Below are positions 13,980 to 60,988 of a stretch of 64,000 nt of DNA, in pieces (the stretch's first letter is position 1; each line of letters starts with the position of its first letter). Position numbers and translations under genes: made by a program. The notes under the pieces were generated by a model, which saw nothing but the letters and a program-made list of their open reading frames with translations, did not search any database and was not told the DNA's origin. Origin of the DNA: Fodinicola acaciae. GTDB lineage: Bacteria > Actinomycetota > Actinomycetes > Mycobacteriales > HKI-0501. The stretch covers positions 1,674,001 through 1,738,000 of the forward strand of contig NZ_WOTN01000002.1 in assembly GCF_010993745.1 (NCBI RefSeq), given 5' to 3'.

Positions 13980-14350
13980 CCTCCGCGCAGGAGCGCCCGC
14001 AGCGCAGGCGAAAACCAACCACACACCCACGCAACAAAGCAGAAAACCCAACCACCCCCTGACGCAACAAAGCAGGAGACGCACCGCCTCTCCAACGCAA
14101 CAACGAGGAGCCGCAACCCTGTCGCCTCCGCGCCCCATGCGCCACCACCACCCCCCGACCGCGCCATGCGGCGCCGCCACCACCTCCCGACCGCGCCGTG
14201 CGCCACCACCCCCCGACCCGCGCCGTGCGGCGCCGCCACCACCGCGCGACCGCCCCGTGCGGCGCCACCACCATCCCCGACCGCGCCATGCGGCGCCACA
14301 CCGCCTCCCGCCGCACCACGCCGCGCCGTACCCCCTCCACCACCGTGACA
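13980..14350. repeat. C-rich degenerate tandem repeat region
   Basis: The plus strand is strongly C-rich and G-poor in parts. The first section (about 14020-14120) has three units sharing ACGCAACAA at about 33-base spacing. The second (about 14130-14320) has six to seven degenerate units of 26-33 bases built on GCGCCATGCGGCGCC followed by CACCACC and CCCGAC. Minus-strand frames through it give Gly/Arg/Trp-rich nonsense, so it is treated as non-coding. Confidence 0.6.
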
Positions 14351-50824: not shown

Positions 50825-52243
50825 TCATGGTGCCGCAACCCGCTTCAGATAGCCGTGGATCGCCTCGGCCGAGCCGCTGATCGCGCCGACGTAGCCGTCC
50901 GGTCGTACGAGCACCAGCGCCGGCGCGGCGATGTCGTACGCGTCTGACGGCTCCATCGGCTGGACGCGTACGCCGGGCAGGTCGGGCGTGGCCATGCCGA
51001 AGGCCAGCAAGGTGAAGTGCGGTCCGCGGAGCACGTCGAACAGCCGCCGGCCGTCCGGCAGCGGCACGTCCGGCGCGCGGTCGCCGGCGCGCAGTCGTCC
51101 AGGCTCCGCGCGGTCGTCGAGCGCCAGCGGTCCGTGGCGATAGGTGATGTCGAGCTGGTGGATCGCCGGTGCCGGTTCGAGCGTCGGCCGGAAGTCGGCT
51201 TTGTGCAGCGTCGTACTCACGCCGAGCACCTGCGCCGCGACCGGCATCCGCTCGGCCTCGTACGTGTCGAGCAGCTCCTCCGGCGCGCCGGCCAGCACCG
51301 CGGCGAGCTTCCAGCCCAGGTTGTGCGCGTCCTGGACGCTGGTGTTCAGGCCCTGGCCGCCGGCCGAGGAGTGAACGTGCGCCGCGTCGCCGGCCAGCAG
51401 GACGCGGCCGAGGCGGAAGCGGTCGACCATGCGTACGTTCACCTTGTAGAGCGAAATCCACCGCAGGTCGGACAACTCGATGTCGTGCCGGCCGGACCGG
51501 TCCACCAGCAGCTGGCGCACCGACTCGATGGTGAGCGGCGGCACCTGGTCGGCCGGCATGTTCGTGACGAACTGGTAGTAGTGGCTGTCCGGCAGGTTCC
51601 ACAGCGCGAATCGTTCCGTCACGTCGCCGGTTTTGCTGAGAATATGGCAGAAAACACCGTCGAGACCGGTCACGCGTACGTCCCCGATCAGCGTCCGCTC
51701 GGACGGAAACGTCTCGCCGGCGAAGCCGACGCCGGACGCCTTGCGGATCGTGCTGCGGCCGCCGTCGGCGCCGACCAGATAGTCGGCGCGCGCGGTCTCG
51801 GTGCTGCCGTCGCGCGTCACCGTGGCCGTGACACTTTCGTTGTCCTGATGGAAGTCTGTGACCTCCGCGCCGAAAACGACCTCGCCTCCCAGGCTCAGCA
51901 GGCGGTCGTACAGAATTTTGTCCGTGCGCCACTGGGGAATCAGCCGGTGCTGAGGTCCGTCCGGCACGGGTGTGCCGAACATCTCGGCGAGCGTACGCTC
52001 GGCGACGACCTCTTTGCCGCTATAGATCCGAAACGACGGGAACGGCATGCTGCCGTCGCGGATCTGCTCGCCGACACCGAGCAGATCGAAGACTTCCTGT
52101 GTCCGCGGGGTGAGGCCTTTTCCGCGCGATCCGACGAAAAGTCCGTCGGCCTTGTCGTACACGCGGCACGGCACGCCGCGGCTGACCAGCTCGCAGGCCA
52201 ACGTGAGGCCGGTGGGTCCCGCCCCTGCGATAATGACTGTCAT
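50825..52243 (-). CDS. FAD-dependent aromatic monooxygenase (rifampicin/PgaE-like)
   Basis: A 472-residue class A flavin monooxygenase: FAD motif IIAGAGPTGLTLACELV (about 4-20), DG motif YLVGADGGRSTIRKASG, GD motif GRVLLAGDAAHVHSSAGGQGLNTSVQDAHNLGWKL, and a C-terminal thioredoxin-like domain from about 370. This architecture is shared by polyketide hydroxylases and rifampicin monooxygenase. The ATG overlaps the TetR stop by four bases (ATGA) with an AAGGAAA site. The substrate is not known; detoxification or tailoring are both possible. Confidence 0.9.
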   Translation of the reverse strand: MTVIIAGAGPTGLTLACELVSRGVPCRVYDKADGLFVGSRGKGLTPRTQEVFDLLGVGEQIRDGSMPFPSFRIYSGKEVVAERTLAEMFGTPVPDGPQHRLIPQWRTDKILYDRLLSLGGEVVFGAEVTDFHQDNESVTATVTRDGSTETARADYLVGADGGRSTIRKASGVGFAGETFPSERTLIGDVRVTGLDGVFCHILSKTGDVTERFALWNLPDSHYYQFVTNMPADQVPPLTIESVRQLLVDRSGRHDIELSDLRWISLYKVNVRMVDRFRLGRVLLAGDAAHVHSSAGGQGLNTSVQDAHNLGWKLAAVLAGAPEELLDTYEAERMPVAAQVLGVSTTLHKADFRPTLEPAPAIHQLDITYRHGPLALDDRAEPGRLRAGDRAPDVPLPDGRRLFDVLRGPHFTLLAFGMATPDLPGVRVQPMEPSDAYDIAAPALVLVRPDGYVGAISGSAEAIHGYLKRVAAP

Positions 52244-52809
52244 GATTTTCCTTTCCGTAAAAGGACAAGCAGCACGTCGTCGACCAGCCGCGCGATGAAC
52301 GCGTCGTCCAGCTCCGCGCGTTGCAGGCGGTGCACGACCATCGCCTCGGCCACGTCGTGGACCAGCTCGGCGTCGACTCCGGGCGGCAGCTCGCCACGCT
52401 TCACGGCCCTGACGAGCGGGTCGTGGAACGGCGAGATCTCCTCGTTTTCCAGATGTTTCTTGAGAGCGCTGGCCAGCTGCGAGTCGGTGCGCATCAGCTG
52501 CGCCAGCTCCGCGTACACGGCGAGCGGAAACTCCGTCGCCTTGCGCCGTACCGTTTCCAGTGCGGCGATGAGGTCCGTACGCAGCGCGCCGGTGTCCGGC
52601 GCCGACGCGTTGAACGCCGCGTCGTGCGCGTCCAGTGCGGCTTTGACCAGCTCCGCTTTGTTGCTCCAGCGCCGATAAATCGTCGTCTTGCTGGCGCGCG
52701 CCTCGGCCGCCACCGCGTCGATCGTCAACGCCTCGTAGCCGCCGCTGGCGAGCAGCCGCATCGTCGCGTCGAGGATCGCGTCCTCGCGCGGCTTTCCTCG
52801 GACCATCAT
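52240..52809 (-). CDS. TetR/AcrR-family regulator
   Basis: A 189-residue repressor with the HTH AILDATMRLLASGGYEALTIDAVAAEARASKTTIYRRW-type segment (about 11-48) and a TetR_C_11/16-like ligand domain. It is the first gene of the operon with the FAD monooxygenase, kinase and response regulator. A nearly perfect 30-base palindrome six bases upstream of the ATG (52815-52844) is the likely autoregulatory operator, so ligand binding would derepress the whole operon. Confidence 0.9.
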   Translation of the reverse strand: MMVRGKPREDAILDATMRLLASGGYEALTIDAVAAEARASKTTIYRRWSNKAELVKAALDAHDAAFNASAPDTGALRTDLIAALETVRRKATEFPLAVYAELAQLMRTDSQLASALKKHLENEEISPFHDPLVRAVKRGELPPGVDAELVHDVAEAMVVHRLQRAELDDAFIARLVDDVLLVLLRKGKS

Positions 52810-52814
52810 GAGTG

Positions 52815-52844
52815 GAAGTGTACGGTACGCGTATCGTACACTTC
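52815..52844. promoter_or_regulatory. 30-base TetR operator
   Basis: GAAGTGTACGGTAC and GTATCGTACACTTC are 14-base arms with one mismatch around GC, immediately upstream of the TetR start codon. The GTGTACG half-sites are typical of TetR-family operators. It overlaps the expected promoter of the operon. Confidence 0.78.
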
Positions 52845-52902
52845 AAGAGGCGGACCCGCTGCGCGGCGAGAATGCCCGCTCGTGTAGTGTTCTCTGAGCT
52901 GA

Positions 52903-52974
52903 GCCCCCGTAGCTCAGGGGATAGAGCACCGCCCTCCGGAGGCGGGTGCGCAGGTTCGAATCCTGCCGGGGGCA
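52903..52974 (+). tRNA. tRNA-Arg (anticodon CCG)
   Basis: A 72-base cloverleaf. Acceptor GCCCCCG pairs with CGGGGGC, D stem GCTC/GAGC, anticodon stem CCGCC/GGCGG with loop CTCCGGA giving anticodon CCG, T stem GCAGG/CCTGC with loop TTCGAAT, discriminator A. CCA is not fully encoded (A then CCC). It reads the CGG codon. Its 3' part is the start of the 95-base tandem array that follows. Confidence 0.95.
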
Positions 52975-53442
52975 CCCAGACCAGGGAAATGGTCTCCCGC
53001 CGAGGTAACCCGTGAGCACCGCGCCGCGCCAGATGGGCGGGTGCGCAGGTTCGAATCCTGCCGGGGGCACCCAGACCAGGGAAATGGTCTCCCGCCGAGG
53101 TAACCCGTGAGCACCGCGCCGCGCCAGATGGGCGGGTGCGCAGGTTCGAATCCTGCCGGGGGCACCCAGACCAGGGAAATGGTCTCCCGCCGAGGTAACC
53201 CGTGAGCACCGCGCCGCGCCAGATGGGCGGGTGCGCAGGTTCGAATCCTGCCGGGGGCACCCAGACCAGGGAAATGGTCTCCCGCCGAGGTAACCCGTGA
53301 GCACCGCGCCGCGCCAGATGGGCGGGTGCGCAGGTTCGAATCCTGCCGGGGGCACCCAGACCAGGGAAATGGTCTCCCGCCGAGGTAACCCGTGAGCACC
53401 GCGCCGCGCCAGATGGGCGGGTGCGAATCCTGCCGGGGGCAC
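52941..53442 (+). repeat. 95-base tandem array derived from the tRNA-Arg 3' half
   Basis: Five units of exactly 95 bases start at 52941, 53036, 53131, 53226 and 53321, and a sixth partial unit starts at 53416. The first unit is the 3' half of the real tRNA plus 61 downstream bases. Each unit has the tRNA anticodon-stem 3' strand, variable loop, T arm and acceptor 3' strand, then a spacer with the hairpin AGACCA-GGGAAA-TGGTCT and GAGCACCGC. The full units look identical. The last unit lacks eight bases of the T arm. There are no variable spacers. Confidence 0.9.
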
Positions 53443-53570
53443 CACACCAAAAGACCCTCACCAGCCGATACGCTGATGCCGCCCACCAACCTGGCGTGTT
53501 CGTCGTCCAGGCAGCTGACGTAGGTCTTCATGATCTTGTCCGCGTGGCCGACAATTGTCGCCGTCGGCGG
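53443..53570 (-). pseudogene. Tyrosine recombinase (integrase) C-terminal remnant
   Basis: On the minus strand the frame reads TATIVGHADKIMKTYVSC followed by LDDEHARLVGGISVSAGEG. This matches the end of phage-type integrases: the GHA/D box with its His, then the Tyr nucleophile in TYV and a short acidic helix. No stop codon follows and the frame runs straight into the tRNA-derived repeats. The rest of the integrase is missing. It is a scar of an element once integrated at the tRNA. Confidence 0.6.
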
Positions 53571-53646
53571 GATAGCCCCTTGACGGAGCGGGCAGCCGAG
53601 CGTACGACATCGGTGGCTTCTGAAATCGATCCCCAAGGGAGCGCTG

Positions 53647-55713
53647 ATGCGGCGTCGGACCTTTCTGCTGTCAGTGGTCGCGGCCAGCGCCGCGTTACCG
53701 GCACTTGGGACATCCGCCGCCTCCGCGACCACGACGTGCGCCGGTCTGCAGTTGCTGAGCGGACCGGAATTTCCCATCGGCGCCTTCTGGCCGCCGTCGA
53801 TGCAGCCGCGGTTCAACTCCCTCGATCGCTTTCAGGAAATGAAAGACGCCGGGTTCACGTTCTCGTTTGTCGGTGCGGGTGACTCCGACGACCCCGCGTA
53901 CGTTGGGTCGAGCCTCGATTTCGCCGCCAGGGTGGGCCTGAAGGCGCTGGTGGTGAACGGGCCGGACCGCGCACTGCAGGTGGCCGACACCTACCAGAGT
54001 TACCAATCCTTCGCAGGGTTCCGGCTGTCCGACGAACCAGGTCCGGATCAGTTCGGTTCGCTGGCCAACGGGCTGGCGGCCGTGCGCTCGAAGGTGCCGG
54101 GTTTGTTGCCGTACATCAATCTCTATCCACAAGACGGTGACGGGTTCCGCGCGTACGTGCAGGGTTTCATCAACACCGTGCGACCAGTGATGCTTTCCTA
54201 CGACAGCTATCCGCTGTTTGCAGACGGATCCGACGACCCGAACTACTTCTCCCGATGGCAGATCTTCCGCGCGATCGGCCTGGGCAGCGGATTGCCGACC
54301 TGGCACTACATCCAGAGCATCTCCTACAATGGCCACCGGTTGCCGACCGCGCCGGAGTTGGCTTGGCAGATCAACGTCAACCTCGCGTACGGCTGCAAGG
54401 GCATCCAGTATTTCTGCTACTGGCAGCCACCGAACACCAATGAAACCTTCGGTCCGGCGCTTATCGACTACGACGGTGACCGCACCGCGTTGTACGACGC
54501 GGCCAAGGCGTTCAACCTCGGTTGGCTCGCACCCGTCGGTGCCGAACTGAAGCCGTTGGTCTCCGAAAAGGTGACACATGCCAACGAATCCCCGCTGCCG
54601 GCTGGGACGCTCGGATTCACCGCGGATCCCTATGTGACCGGCACCTCCGGCAGCGCGGTGATTGTGTCGCGATTCCGTGCTGTCGCGCGAGGGCAGCGGA
54701 CCCGCTGGCTGTTGTTGGCCAACCGATCCCACAATGCCGTCGCGCGCACGAATGTCGCGATCAACACGGCAACCGTGTCCAGCGTGTCACGGTTCGATCC
54801 GGCCACGCGTACGTACAACCCGGACAGCACGACGGTCTCCGTATCGCTGGATCCTGGCGCGGCGGCTCTCTATCGCCTCGACGCCTCAGGTGAATGGCTG
54901 GATCCGCAACTCCATCTCGTTCTGGTCGGCAATGGCGCTGTTTACCACGCACTCCAGGAAACGGCCGGCGGTTGGGACGGGCCAAACGAGCTCGGCGATG
55001 CCAGCCGGTTGGTTGCCACCGCGGAGGTCAATGCCGAGCTGCACGTCGTCGAAATCGACGGCAACACGATGTATCACCGCATACGATTCATCGACGGCAG
55101 CTGGGCTCCACACAACGCGTTCGTCACGATGAGCGGAATCAGCTCGGTTGCGGCGGCATCGGTGGCCGGCGAGCTGCACGTCGCGCTCGTGACCAATCGC
55201 GTTGTCTATCACGCGATCCGGCACGCCGACGGCACCTGGGACGGATTCAACCGTCTCGGTGACGCCGCCGATCTCATCGCGATCGCCGAGGTGGACGGAG
55301 AGCTGCAGGTCGCCGAAATCGACGGAAACTCGATCTATCACCGCGTACGATCGGCGGATCGCAATTGGAGCAGCCGAAACCTGCTGGCCAGTCTCGGATC
55401 GGTCACCTCCGTCGCGGCGACCGGAGCCGGCCGCGAACTGATCCTCGGCATCGTGGCGGCCGGAAACCTCTGCTATTCGGTCAAGCATGCGGACGGCAGC
55501 TGGATTTTTCCCACCGCGACCGGAGACGTGGCGGCTCAGGTTTCGGTGGCGATGGTCGGCGGCGAAGTCGCCTTCATCTTCACCGCGAATGATGGCCTCC
55601 AGCAACGAATCCGTCACTCTGACGGCGGTTTCGGTGCCGTGAGTGCCATCGCGACACCGGTGCGTCCGACCGCACTTGCCGCGACCGGTCGTTCACCCGA
55701 TCCCTGCGCATAA
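53647..55713 (+). CDS. Secreted TIM-barrel enzyme with C-terminal beta-propeller-like repeats
   Basis: A 688-residue protein with a twin-arginine-like signal (MRRRTFLLSVVAASAALPAL, mature from about 28). Residues about 35-320 look like a glycoside-hydrolase TIM barrel: an N-terminal FPIGAFWPP strand, GFRLSDEPGPDQFG with a possible acid Glu (about 130), and GCKGIQYFCYWQPPNTNETFG near 255-275. Residues about 325-410 form a small beta domain. From 420 to 680 there are repeated units of about 45-50 residues of the form ELHVVEIDGNTMYHRIR / DGSWAPHN, resembling the blades of PLL-type bacterial lectins. Family number not recognised. A GGGAG site precedes the ATG. Confidence 0.65.
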   Translation: MRRRTFLLSVVAASAALPALGTSAASATTTCAGLQLLSGPEFPIGAFWPPSMQPRFNSLDRFQEMKDAGFTFSFVGAGDSDDPAYVGSSLDFAARVGLKALVVNGPDRALQVADTYQSYQSFAGFRLSDEPGPDQFGSLANGLAAVRSKVPGLLPYINLYPQDGDGFRAYVQGFINTVRPVMLSYDSYPLFADGSDDPNYFSRWQIFRAIGLGSGLPTWHYIQSISYNGHRLPTAPELAWQINVNLAYGCKGIQYFCYWQPPNTNETFGPALIDYDGDRTALYDAAKAFNLGWLAPVGAELKPLVSEKVTHANESPLPAGTLGFTADPYVTGTSGSAVIVSRFRAVARGQRTRWLLLANRSHNAVARTNVAINTATVSSVSRFDPATRTYNPDSTTVSVSLDPGAAALYRLDASGEWLDPQLHLVLVGNGAVYHALQETAGGWDGPNELGDASRLVATAEVNAELHVVEIDGNTMYHRIRFIDGSWAPHNAFVTMSGISSVAAASVAGELHVALVTNRVVYHAIRHADGTWDGFNRLGDAADLIAIAEVDGELQVAEIDGNSIYHRVRSADRNWSSRNLLASLGSVTSVAATGAGRELILGIVAAGNLCYSVKHADGSWIFPTATGDVAAQVSVAMVGGEVAFIFTANDGLQQRIRHSDGGFGAVSAIATPVRPTALAATGRSPDPCA

Positions 55714-58189: not shown

Positions 58190-59560
58190 TCACGCAGTCA
58201 GGCCGACGCCGGCGGACATTTCCTTGGGCGGCGGCGCTGGCGCCCGATCAGTGGTGGCGGCTCTCAGAGCGTCTCGCATCAGCCGGTGAAACGTGTAGCG
58301 ATCTGGTCCCTGTTCGATCACCACGTTGTCCTCGACCAGTACGTCCAGCCATCGCCTCGCGCGCGAAAGGTCATAGCCACCAAGCGTGGCCAACACGCGG
58401 GCGTCGAAGGCCTCGGTGCGGCGGAGGCTGAGTTCTTGGAGAATCCCGCGCTGAGCGGCGGAGAACTTACCGAAAGACTGGCCGAGGGTTTCGCTGACAC
58501 TGCGATCGCCGAGCACCAACTCGGCCAGGCGAGAAGAGTCACGTGCCAAACGCGCCGCCTGGTGCGTGACCGTCCACGACGGCCTACTGCGCAATCGAGC
58601 GCCGGCAATGCGGATTGCCAATGGCAGATAGCCACACATTTCGGTGACGATGTCGATATCGCGATCGGTGGTAGCGCCAGGTGCGATGCGGGCCACGCGC
58701 ATGAACAGGCAAGCCGCCTCCGCAGGTGTGAGTACGTCCAGGGAAATGGTCGTGTCCGCGTCGAGGTCCGCGAGCTTTTTCCTGCTTGTCACCAACACCA
58801 TGGACGCGCCGGCGCCGGGCAGCAGGGAGCGGATCTGATGCGAGTGTGTCGCGTCGTCGAAGATCACCAACATGTGCCGGGTGGCCATGACGGCGCGCCA
58901 CAGAAGCATGCGGTCCGCGATGCTGTCGGGGACACGGTCATCGGCGACTCCCACTCGGCGCAACAATGACGCGAGGACCGCCGCCGTCGACGGTGGTCGC
59001 GCGTCCGACGCGTGTGCGCGCAGCTCGGTATAGAGAATTCCGTCCCGGAAATGGTCACCGACGCGATGGGCCGCATGGACGACCATGGCGGTTTTTCCGA
59101 TGCCTGCCATCCCGTCGACGCAGAGGAGACCAACGGTGTCCGCCGCGGCCTTCTGGCTGGCGACGGTTGCCTGCGTGAGTTGAGCCAATGGTGATTCTCT
59201 GCCGACGAAATCGGTGATCCCCGCCGGCAGTTCGTTGGTCCGCGCCCTGGTCGCCGCCGACCGATCGTCCTGCCCACAGGCATTGTCCTGCGTACCGGCC
59301 GACTGGGAATAGGTCGGATAGGCGGCTCGCATGAGCTCGGTGAACCGTGGACGCGAAAGGTCAAGTGCGTCCGCCAGCGCCCGCATCGACTGCCGGTATG
59401 GCACAAGGGTGCGGCCACGCTCTATGTCCCCCAGAGCGCGAAGGCTGAGTCCAGCCTTTGTCGCGAGTTCGTCCTGGGTCATGCCGGCGGCCAGTCGCAA
59501 CCTGCGCAACAGTTCGCCCAACGCCGCGGGTGGTTGTGCGGTAACGTCCACAGTAACCAT
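58190..59560 (-). CDS. XRE/NB-ARC (STAND) regulator, second of a tandem pair
   Basis: A 456-residue protein. Residues 12-75 are an XRE-type helix-turn-helix (LGELLRRLRLAAGMTQDELATKAGLSLRALGDIERG). NB-ARC follows from FVGRESPL (about 118), with Walker A GMAGIGKT (150-157), Walker B MLVIFDDA and the GxP-like LPLAIRIAG. The last ~80 residues form a winged-helix-like arm ending in HRLMRDALRAA. No TPR, WD40 or LRR sensor repeats follow, so it is shorter than most STAND regulators. The upstream paralog lies 99 bases away in the same direction; together they may control the surrounding glycosidase genes. Confidence 0.85.
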   Translation of the reverse strand: MVTVDVTAQPPAALGELLRRLRLAAGMTQDELATKAGLSLRALGDIERGRTLVPYRQSMRALADALDLSRPRFTELMRAAYPTYSQSAGTQDNACGQDDRSAATRARTNELPAGITDFVGRESPLAQLTQATVASQKAAADTVGLLCVDGMAGIGKTAMVVHAAHRVGDHFRDGILYTELRAHASDARPPSTAAVLASLLRRVGVADDRVPDSIADRMLLWRAVMATRHMLVIFDDATHSHQIRSLLPGAGASMVLVTSRKKLADLDADTTISLDVLTPAEAACLFMRVARIAPGATTDRDIDIVTEMCGYLPLAIRIAGARLRSRPSWTVTHQAARLARDSSRLAELVLGDRSVSETLGQSFGKFSAAQRGILQELSLRRTEAFDARVLATLGGYDLSRARRWLDVLVEDNVVIEQGPDRYTFHRLMRDALRAATTDRAPAPPPKEMSAGVGLTA

Positions 59561-59659
59561 GGTCTTTATGCCATTTCTGGGAAATGCCGCCGGTCGGTGA
59601 CCAGACGGTGCTTGACGCGCCTCGGTGCTCCGAAGCCCGTTGATGGCGACTTGGGAAGA

Positions 59660-60988
59660 TCAGACATGAATGTCTCCGCCGCTCGCCGCACTCCGAGCGA
59701 ATTGGCGCGTGAGGCGGTGAAACGCGTATCGTCCTGATGGTTCGGCGGTCAGGAAGTTGCCGTCCACCAGTGCATCGAGGATGTCCTCGATTCTGCCGTG
59801 TTCAACGCCAGCAAGGATCGCCGCCGAACCGGCATCGAAGGTCGGCTCCGGGTGGAGGCTGAGGCGATGAACCAATCCGCGGTAGGCCACCGGAAGCGTC
59901 CGGAATGACGAGGCGAGACTCGCGCGTACGCTCAGACCGTCCGCGGCGAGCTCTCCGAGTGCGCCGACAGGGTCCGCGAGTCGCGCGGCGAGATCGGCGG
60001 GGTCGAGCCGCTCTCGCAACAGGGAGGCGCAAATCCTCAGTGCCAGCGGCAGGTTTCCACATGCGTGGACGATCGAGAAAACGGTCGCGTCCGCGTCCAG
60101 GCCGGCGATCCCGGCGGCTTCGGTGAATGTCATGAACAGCTGAATGGCCTCTGCGCTCGACGGTACGTCCAGATGGAACGCCGTCGCGGTGTCCAGAGCC
60201 GACAGCTTTCGCCGGCTGGTGACCAGGACGAGGCAACGGCCGGCACCGGGCAGCAGCGGCCGCACTTGGGCCGGATCGAGTGCGTCGTCCAGAATCACGA
60301 TCATCCGGCGATCCGCCATTTCGGCGCGCCAGCGCAACACGCGGTCATCGAGCCGGTCCGGGATGTCCGCCCGATCGACTCCCACGCGGCGGAGCAGGGA
60401 TGTCAGGGCGTTCGTCGTGGGCAACGGCGGATGGTCAGGTGTGTGGCCGCAGAGGTCGATGTACGCGATTCCGTCGGGGAAACAGTCGCGGAGAAGCCGC
60501 GCGAGGTGAGTGACGACCGCTGTCTTTCCGACCCCGGCCATTCCCTCGACGACATATATCGCGACCGTGTTGCCAGGTCTCCCAGATGCCTCAATTATCG
60601 TACGAAGAAGCCCCGCGAACTCGCCTTCGCGCCCGATGAATTCAGGTGCGCCGGACAGCAGGTTGCGCTCGGGCCGGCAAAGCTGTTCGTTGTCCCGGCC
60701 GAGTGCCTGAAGGTCGTCGTTGAGGGAAATGGGAGGGCGAGCCGCGGTCATCAACGCGCTGGCAGGCGCCGCCGGCAACGAAAGTGCGCTCGCGAGCGAA
60801 CGCACGGACGTGGGATGCGGCCGTCTGGTGCGACCGGTCTCCATGTCGCTGACGGCCCGCGGTGACAGGCTTGCGTGCAGAGCGAGCGCCTCCTGGGACA
60901 TCCCGGCCGCCTGCCGCAGCCTTTTCAGCAACTCCGCAAATGCCGGATGGGAGGGCAATGATGGTTCAGGGGTCGTGGCGTCGGTCAA
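59660..60988 (-). CDS. XRE/NB-ARC (STAND) regulator, first of a tandem pair
   Basis: A 442-residue paralog of the next gene. XRE HTH occupies 16-75 (LLKRLRQAAGMSQEALALHASLSPRAVSDMETG) and NB-ARC starts at FIGREGEF (about 117), with Walker A GMAGVGKT (149-156), MIVILDDALD and LPLALRICASLL. The C-terminal arm ends FHRLTRQFARSAA. It also lacks sensor repeats. Overall similarity to the downstream protein suggests an old duplication. It lies between GH9 and GH43 genes, so a role in carbohydrate-responsive transcription is plausible but not shown. Confidence 0.85.
   Translation of the reverse strand: MTDATTPEPSLPSHPAFAELLKRLRQAAGMSQEALALHASLSPRAVSDMETGRTRRPHPTSVRSLASALSLPAAPASALMTAARPPISLNDDLQALGRDNEQLCRPERNLLSGAPEFIGREGEFAGLLRTIIEASGRPGNTVAIYVVEGMAGVGKTAVVTHLARLLRDCFPDGIAYIDLCGHTPDHPPLPTTNALTSLLRRVGVDRADIPDRLDDRVLRWRAEMADRRMIVILDDALDPAQVRPLLPGAGRCLVLVTSRRKLSALDTATAFHLDVPSSAEAIQLFMTFTEAAGIAGLDADATVFSIVHACGNLPLALRICASLLRERLDPADLAARLADPVGALGELAADGLSVRASLASSFRTLPVAYRGLVHRLSLHPEPTFDAGSAAILAGVEHGRIEDILDALVDGNFLTAEPSGRYAFHRLTRQFARSAASGGDIHV

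Follow-up and report, generated by a model that had tools for sequence, protein, structure and literature searches.

Tandem units resembling broken tRNA-Arg(CCG) copies directly behind the intact tRNA gene in Fodinicola acaciae

tRNA genes are favoured landing sites of phages and mobile islands, and their duplication and breakage leave a readable record. Among bacteria, one close arrangement to the one reported here is the set of repeats at the tyrosine tRNA gene tyrT of Escherichia coli, for which the original work was reportedly that of Bosl and Kersten. The transcript of that locus, rtT RNA, is treated in PMC2965389. Repeated tRNA 3' ends may also mark the boundaries of mobile elements: according to PMC3218068, three direct repeats beyond the 3' end of a tRNA-Arg gene in Frankia Fean6303 act as attL, attL2 and attR, bounding excisable elements of 15.3 and 32.3 kb. 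In addition, tandem amplification at a tRNA gene has been linked to an endonuclease. According to PMC13096335, the phage T6 protein SegB, of the GIY-YIG family, cuts inside tRNA genes at a reported motif RAWTSGAAC and is needed for tandem amplification of tRNA-Tyr. In the open-licence literature searched, no description was found of a pattern of broken tRNA repeats that crosses phyla, and among the papers listed the E. coli rtT transcript alone was recognised as a bacterial array of this kind.

The window analysed here is the whole 64-kb stretch (64,000 nucleotides) of the F. acaciae genome, an assembly of 8.86 Mb in 4 contigs with 100% completeness. ARAGORN calls a single tRNA in the window, a tRNA-Arg(CCG) gene, and a tandem array stands directly behind it (Table 1). 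Tandem Repeats Finder reported a period of 95 with 5.1 copies, 100% matches and 0% indels at 52941-53425, and its score of 970 was the top among the 26 rows for the window. Compared copy by copy, five 95-base blocks are identical at 95/95 positions. Both results bear out the first-pass annotation of this DNA, which had proposed a tandem array with a 95-base period. Block 1 starts inside the tRNA gene, whose own last 36 bases share the 95-bp period; behind the gene come four perfect extra tRNA 3' parts and one with an 8-base deletion, with five identical 59-base spacers between the 3' parts. The earlier count of five identical units and a truncated sixth fits this anatomy if the tRNA itself is counted as a unit. 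The spacer had likewise been described as constant, and all five are indeed identical, but their length is 59 and not 61 bases, and the block identical to the tRNA is 36 bases long. Chance is excluded because 475 bases are perfectly periodic, and the tandem array at tRNA-Arg(CCG) is confirmed as real. With the whole array as query against its own genome, the array itself and five weaker matches were returned, all five of them other tRNAs.

Table 1. Positions of the tRNA gene, the repeat units and the flanking genes in the window
Feature	Positions	Strand	Basis
TetR-family regulator, upstream, outside the array	52240..52809	-	Pfam TetR_N + TetR_C_11
Intact tRNA-Arg(CCG), parent gene, no CCA encoded	52903..52976	+	ARAGORN; Rfam tRNA 67.9 bits
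Identical 95-base blocks	52941-53035, 53036-53130, 53131-53225, 53226-53320, 53321-53415	+	Copy-by-copy comparison
tRNA 3' 36 bases recurring in the units (anticodon 3' stem, variable loop, T arm, acceptor 3' strand)	52941..52976	+	Exact match in copies 0-4
First of the five identical spacers, 59 bases	52977..53035	+	Copy comparison
Hairpin AGACCA-GGGAAA-TGGTCT, opening each spacer (first copy given)	52978..52995	+	Sequence; folds as 6-pair hairpin
tRNA-like spacer end, apparent D-stem/anticodon 5' strand remnant GAGCACCGC and replaced anticodon loop GCCGCGCCAGATG, first copy	53014..53035	+	Sequence; aligns with F. feengrottensis and Kribbella units
Extra tRNA 3' part, copy 1, perfect	53036..53071	+	
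Extra tRNA 3' part, copy 2, perfect	53131..53166	+	
Extra tRNA 3' part, copy 3, perfect	53226..53261	+	
Extra tRNA 3' part, copy 4, perfect	53321..53356	+	
Final tRNA 3' part, array end; reaches tRNA 3' end, 8-base T-arm deletion	53416..53443	+	
Next gene downstream, 688 aa, no Pfam match	53647..55713	+	

The units had first been taken for tRNA 3' halves. The tRNA 3' part does recur, but the unit corresponds to approximately the 3' two thirds of the gene, in which another sequence stands in place of the anticodon loop. Over its final 22 bases (GAGCACCGCGCCGCGCCAGATG), the spacer resembles the D-stem and anticodon 5' strand of the tRNA: where the tRNA reads GAGCACCGC-CCTCCGGA-GGCGGGTGCGCAGG, the unit reads GAGCACCGC-GCCGCGCCAGATG-GGCGGGTGCGCAGG and continues. 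Each unit looks like a 5'-truncated, core-broken copy of the tRNA whose anticodon loop has been replaced, and the tRNA and four of the units have the same T loop. Taken as a whole, the spacer bears little likeness to the tRNA 5' part (z 0.54), and the tRNA-like reading rests on the correctly placed GAGCACCGC, which is common to the units of three taxa, namely F. acaciae, F. feengrottensis and Kribbella, bar its first base in F. feengrottensis. The hairpin AGACCA/TGGTCT noticed at first pass is present at the start of each spacer and folds with 6 pairs, but it is not called a terminator: no T run follows it, and no terminator-like site was found on the + strand in 52600-53700. The replaced anticodon loop of the window unit is not unusually structured (z -1.29 versus shuffles), and the replaced loops of the three actinobacterial units gave z values of -1.18 to -1.42 with no marked hairpin. 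Since these loops fold no better than shuffles, we do not claim a conserved hairpin in actinobacteria. No promoter-like site was returned by a sigma-70 scan, which does not cover all actinobacterial promoters.

Several familiar identities were considered and set aside. A CRISPR array is ruled out by the identity of all five spacers, and ordinary tandem tRNA genes are ruled out by the single ARAGORN call. A known RNA family was not returned by the Rfam scan, in which only the tRNA scored above its family cut-off; 'Plastid-ycf2' matches fell below the cut-off and lie antisense to the tRNA and the units. Around the array, from approximately 45.7 to 61.0 kb, 12 ORFs tested by Pfam included no nuclease and no integrase. 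Antisense ORFs cross the array in three frames, and one of them, at 50825-53461 on the - strand, fuses array sequence to the TetR-region and monooxygenase frame and could be mis-annotated. Elsewhere in the window, two neighbouring genes at 58190-60988 have an equal domain make-up of HTH and NB-ARC, and degenerate GC-rich tandem repeats with periods of 27-59 bases lie at 14010-14328.

Related units were found in two other taxa. The array of F. feengrottensis has an 80-bp period and lies on a different contig from the tRNA-Arg(CCG) gene of that species. It is preceded by an apparent decayed tRNA 3' end and stands approximately 300 bp from an ORF of DUF2637, a family known from plasmids and ICEs. 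Its units end in a similar tRNA-like stretch. At the base where the window unit and its tRNA both have G (CCGG..), these units have A, as does their own tRNA (CCAG..), from which they differ at one other base. In Kribbella, one 82-bp unit occurs once, at the tRNA 3' end, in a single genome of the 38 in the genus, and the locus itself is found in 38/38. In 15/38, the sequence that flanks the unit downstream gives a second match immediately after the tRNA, overlapping the tRNA 3' part, and the unit is absent at 27/27 loci displayed out of 29 others fetched, two of which were not caught by the pattern. Judged from these alignments, the Kribbella event is an 82-bp insertion exactly at the tRNA 3' end in one lineage. 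The first-pass annotation had suggested comparing the locus in relatives for changes in copy number, and the 80- and 82-bp units in other copy numbers are what that comparison gives.

Spacer likeness, measured against shuffles, is highest between the window and F. feengrottensis (z 4.85), followed by the window and Kribbella (z 3.55) and the third pair (z 1.53), and between taxa the spacer aligns best at its tRNA-like end. The array is rare. An exact double T-arm pattern, which would miss F. feengrottensis, matched one of 394 genomes of the class, that of the window only. An exact replaced-loop pattern also matched one of 394, the Kribbella genome only, in a sample that leaves the window's genome outside and may overlap with the other. 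The window showed no nucleotide-level synteny except the tRNA with the stretches fetched from F. feengrottensis and from a further relative (G002). A Nonomuraea match with five places was an ordinary tRNA-Arg(CCT) without an array at the one place examined.

The comparison with E. coli is one of layout. In strain MG1655, six places around tyrT and tyrV carry the 19-base tRNA-Tyr tail: the two tRNAs themselves, one place between them and three behind tyrV at 178-bp spacing. The tyrT-tyrV locus holds four extra tRNA-Tyr tails, inspection by eye shows the tRNA copy of every unit interrupted in its T loop, and the rttR RNA is annotated directly behind tyrV. Both loci have tandem units directly behind an intact tRNA, each unit ending in the tRNA 3' tail, and in both the tRNA copy appears broken internally. 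However, in E. coli the T loop is interrupted by approximately 100 bases, the identical tail is shorter and the units are longer, whereas in F. acaciae it is the anticodon loop that is replaced, and the T arm is intact. The 7 Rfam matches at E up to 10 in 51000-55000 did not include rtT. On sequence grounds, the Fodinicola array shares the plan of E. coli tyrT/rttR and not its sequence.

We favour, at a probability of about 0.52, the reading that part of tRNA-Arg(CCG) was duplicated in a broken form, through break repair or in some unspecified way, and was then amplified locally into an array on the same plan as the E. coli tyrT (rttR) repeats. It would have begun with a single insertion directly after the tRNA, which placed filler and a 5'-truncated, replaced-loop tRNA copy before the old trailer. 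The anatomy of this step is seen in the units; its most likely cause would be repair of a break in the tRNA gene, with site-specific insertion as the main alternative. The tRNA stayed intact, so the insertion would have been tolerated. The duplicated 36-bp tRNA 3' sequence then served as a direct repeat, across which unequal recombination or replication slippage multiplied the 95-bp unit, as the identity of the copies shows; the outcome is four perfect copies and a further one that carries a deletion. The units are perfectly identical and their period takes in the tRNA itself, both of which point to unequal exchange across the 36-bp direct repeat, and this amplification is the firm part of the explanation. 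A recent amplification by unequal crossover was among the origins offered at first pass, and it agrees with the identical units, with the period shared by the tRNA 3' part and with the other copy numbers of the relatives' units. The same exchange would presumably hold the 3' parts of the units near the sequence of their own tRNA as the spacers drift between species. Break repair as the origin is suggested by broken copies elsewhere and by the SegB demonstration. A nuclease-triggered start is plausible here too, by analogy, because GIY-YIG genes lie in units elsewhere and SegB both cuts and drives amplification. No selected function is proposed for the array in the window.

A different beginning would be an integrative element, a phage or actinomycete ICE with a tyrosine integrase, that entered at the tRNA 3' end and was later deleted nearly completely, leaving a scar of tRNA, filler and attR core that was then amplified. 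A single scar amplified later is possible, given the match to attachment cores and the integrase-type genes beside the tRNA in relatives, and we regard it as a serious rival, although a somewhat unlikely one. A 34-base core matches the Streptomyces phages VWB, RP3, SF3 and OnionKnight at 97% and carries an attP annotation in VWB and RP3, and the annotated 54-bp attP core of RP3, whose anticodon loop reads as that of a tRNA-Arg with a CCT anticodon, starts at AGAGCACCGC, within one base of the start of tRNA-likeness in the unit. Beside tRNA-Arg(CCG), G002 has a Phage_integrase ORF (8.5e-18) and F. feengrottensis (G001) has an ORF with a Recombinase domain of the serine recombinase type (6.5e-16), the F. 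feengrottensis array adjoins the DUF2637 ORF, and the Kribbella join at the tRNA 3' end is seamless, as site-specific integration gives. The Frankia report offers the further likeness of direct repeats of a tRNA-Arg 3' end beyond the gene, although the Fodinicola repeats are 95 bp apart with 59 bp between them. Against such an origin, the anticodon loop is intact in the phage cores but replaced in the units of the window, F. feengrottensis and Kribbella. Searched as an exact pattern, the unit-type core matched 0 viral contigs, the known Kribbella unit was its only match in 394 genomes of the class, and none of the 12 ORFs tested by Pfam near the window array is an integrase. A search of phage and plasmid records for a parent element matched the tRNA core alone. 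The first-pass suggestion of successive attachment-site scars fails for the array taken as a whole, in that serial integrations are expected to leave different spacers; we reject serial integration of different elements because the five spacers are identical. As a separate observation, the G002 ORF beside tRNA-Arg(CCG), at L144:10970-12412, joins in one reading frame a phage integrase domain and, behind it, a GntR DNA-binding domain, an unusual fusion.

The remaining readings concern what the array does and whether it was assembled correctly. It is improbable that this is a functional RNA array, in which the tRNA transcript would run through the units and be cut into tRNA-like 3' RNAs that act as small RNAs or sponges, as proposed for the E. 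coli rtT RNA. The shared plan with tyrT/rttR and the alignment of the tRNA-like spacer end between taxa would fit such a role, but the occurrence is sporadic, at 1/394 and 1/394 class genomes by exact patterns and 1/38 in Kribbella, the replaced loop is not unusually structured, and the units of another locus (L114) contain by eye a terminator-like hairpin with a T run, which would hinder read-through. An artefact, in which the assembler multiplied a single unit, is very improbable. The 475 periodic bases do exceed short reads, and the copy number could be wrong, but the genome stands in 4 contigs at full completeness, the last copy has its own deletion and a related array is present in the independent assembly of the sister species F. 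feengrottensis.

Broken tRNA repeats are found in other bacteria as well. Public genomes were scanned for pairs of T arms with a spacing of 69-99 bases, which gave at least 118 stretches. Among the 118 stretches listed, 21 had a T-arm copy outside an intact tRNA, and by record title these belong to Bacteroidetes, Ignavibacteriae, various actinobacterial groups, a single 'Euryarchaeota' contig and other bacteria; the intact parent lay upstream on the same strand in 18/21 and downstream in 1/21, and no intact parent was in the stretch in 2/21. Within the same 118, 22 of the 24 copies with a parent match that parent for at least 8 bases past the T arm. How much of the rest is kept differs between loci, by scores that were taken without a null: 10-12/12 bases on the D-arm side and 9-12/17 of the anticodon arm in L022, L067, L077, L083 and L114, more of the anticodon arm (13-15/17) in Marmoricola/Nocardioides units, and no clear D-arm remnant (5-7/12 bases) in L013, L021, L059, L090 and L102. 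The Marmoricola-type unit was found in 4/245 genomes of Nocardioidaceae, all already known cases. The 'Euryarchaeota archaeon' contig (L128:1-180) has two tRNA-like tails at a distance of 81 bp, accompanied by what look by eye like GGGAT..ATCCC hairpins, with no intact parent tRNA found in the stretch, and is a possible archaeal case. Streptomyces viridochromogenes (L075:4260-4560) has a series of tRNA-like segments whose T arms are spaced by 40 and 95 bp; ARAGORN calls one of the segments as a tRNA of unknown type. In Nocardioides marmorisolisilvae, a DUF222 ORF (L108:7347-7982; Pfam 2.1e-8) lies directly downstream of tRNA-Arg(CCG) and one unit; it was the single nuclease-like family that Pfam returned among 20 ORFs, 18 beside actinobacterial arrays and two in the window.

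In the Ignavibacteriae class, a unit-derived pattern matched 4/294 genomes, the seed genome included, and in three of these four the units stand behind tRNA-Pro. The replacement there is a hairpin of the TCCCGA..TCGGGA type, partly by construction of the pattern. This hairpin recurs elsewhere in most of the ten genomes tested, when its copies are set against reversed-pattern controls (copies/controls: G396 33/0, G533 37/1, G500 9/0, G397 13/1, G398 19/0, G400 11/0 and G589 7/4; three comparison genomes without the unit, 9/4, 11/2 and 3/2). Long arrays with TCCCGA..TCGGGA hairpins and no ORF in the unit are present in G533, with eleven 67-68-bp units at tRNA-Asn (L191, G533:C1:328900-330700) and five 90-bp units at tRNA-Asp (L193, G533:C1:3287700-3289200).

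Some of these loci also encode a small GIY-YIG protein. In G589, one is encoded in the interval that separates a broken copy from a tRNA-Pro-like copy not called by ARAGORN. A search of 16 unit-bearing genomes gave 49 GIY-YIG matches in frames shorter than 200 aa; 39 were examined and ten were not fetched, and the 39 represent 32 places in nine non-actinobacterial genomes. Of these, 25/39 matches (18/32 places) have an ARAGORN tRNA within 700 bp, in every case on the same strand, in stretches some of which extend only approximately 500 bp past the match; the genomes were picked for having arrays, and therefore these counts are not frequencies. All 13 long-frame GIY-YIG matches fetched had no tRNA in approximately 3 kb, a loose contrast because 11/13 come from actinobacterial genomes. 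Seven ORFs in six loci (L184, L192, L194, L022, L174 and L177) were confirmed as GIY-YIG by Pfam. These ORFs are found inside or adjacent to units built from 5' or 3' portions of a tRNA next to the intact tRNA, in which a hairpin has been swapped into the D, anticodon or T arm. In the ORF-bearing units of G533, a tRNA 5' part whose hairpin occupies the D or anticodon region comes first and the ORF comes behind it; tRNA-Pro(CGG) and tRNA-Ser have three such units each. G396 has the ORF followed by a tRNA 3' part with a T-arm hairpin, in two units at tRNA-Asn, and the 1-Mb genome G400 has two 5' parts with ORFs before tRNA-Tyr and a 3' part after it that shares the hairpin of one of them.

The actinobacterial arrays have no such partner in the genomes searched. 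No small GIY-YIG was found in the genome of the window (G000) or in F. feengrottensis (G001), where matches occurred only in frames of 345-770 aa, and in all seven actinobacterial genomes (G000, G001, G401, G402, G407, G409 and G410) matches were confined to frames of at least 345 aa. DUF559 was tried as an actinobacterial counterpart and rejected, with a tRNA at 0/11 loci. By our reading, the SegB motif is the reverse complement of the T loop GTTCSAWTY; it has 9 matches in the window, 5 of which are the five intact T arms of the array, as would hold for many tRNAs. The T6 system resembles the Fodinicola locus in tandem amplification at a tRNA gene, but there the whole tRNA and segB are amplified in a phage under selection, and here a broken partial tRNA only. 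The GIY-YIG-linked units of the Ignavibacteriae class and of the 1-Mb genome share with the Fodinicola units the tandem, replaced-arm partial tRNA copies beside an intact tRNA; they differ in their TCCCGA..TCGGGA-type hairpin, in being 5' or 3' parts and, for some, in carrying an endonuclease gene. The replaced loop of the window is unstructured, unlike those hairpins, and kinship of mechanism may therefore be drawn by analogy only. A broader and more speculative idea, which we think unlikely as a whole, is that broken, swapped-arm tRNA repeats form one recurring class of tiny genetic elements across phyla, spread or amplified by small free-standing GIY-YIG endonucleases that cut tRNA genes. 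The swapped arm would then protect the copies from the enzyme, and arrays that have no enzyme, such as those of Fodinicola and E. coli tyrT, would be nuclease-less or fossil forms.

If the broken-tRNA arrays across phyla do share one cause, the E. coli tyrT repeats would be one case of a general process, and small GIY-YIG genes next to tRNA genes would gain a role, in cutting tRNA genes and driving local amplification. The F. acaciae array itself illustrates cleanly, in nature, how a 36-bp direct repeat can expand at a tRNA gene and leave that gene unbroken, and it offers a copy-number marker for related strains.
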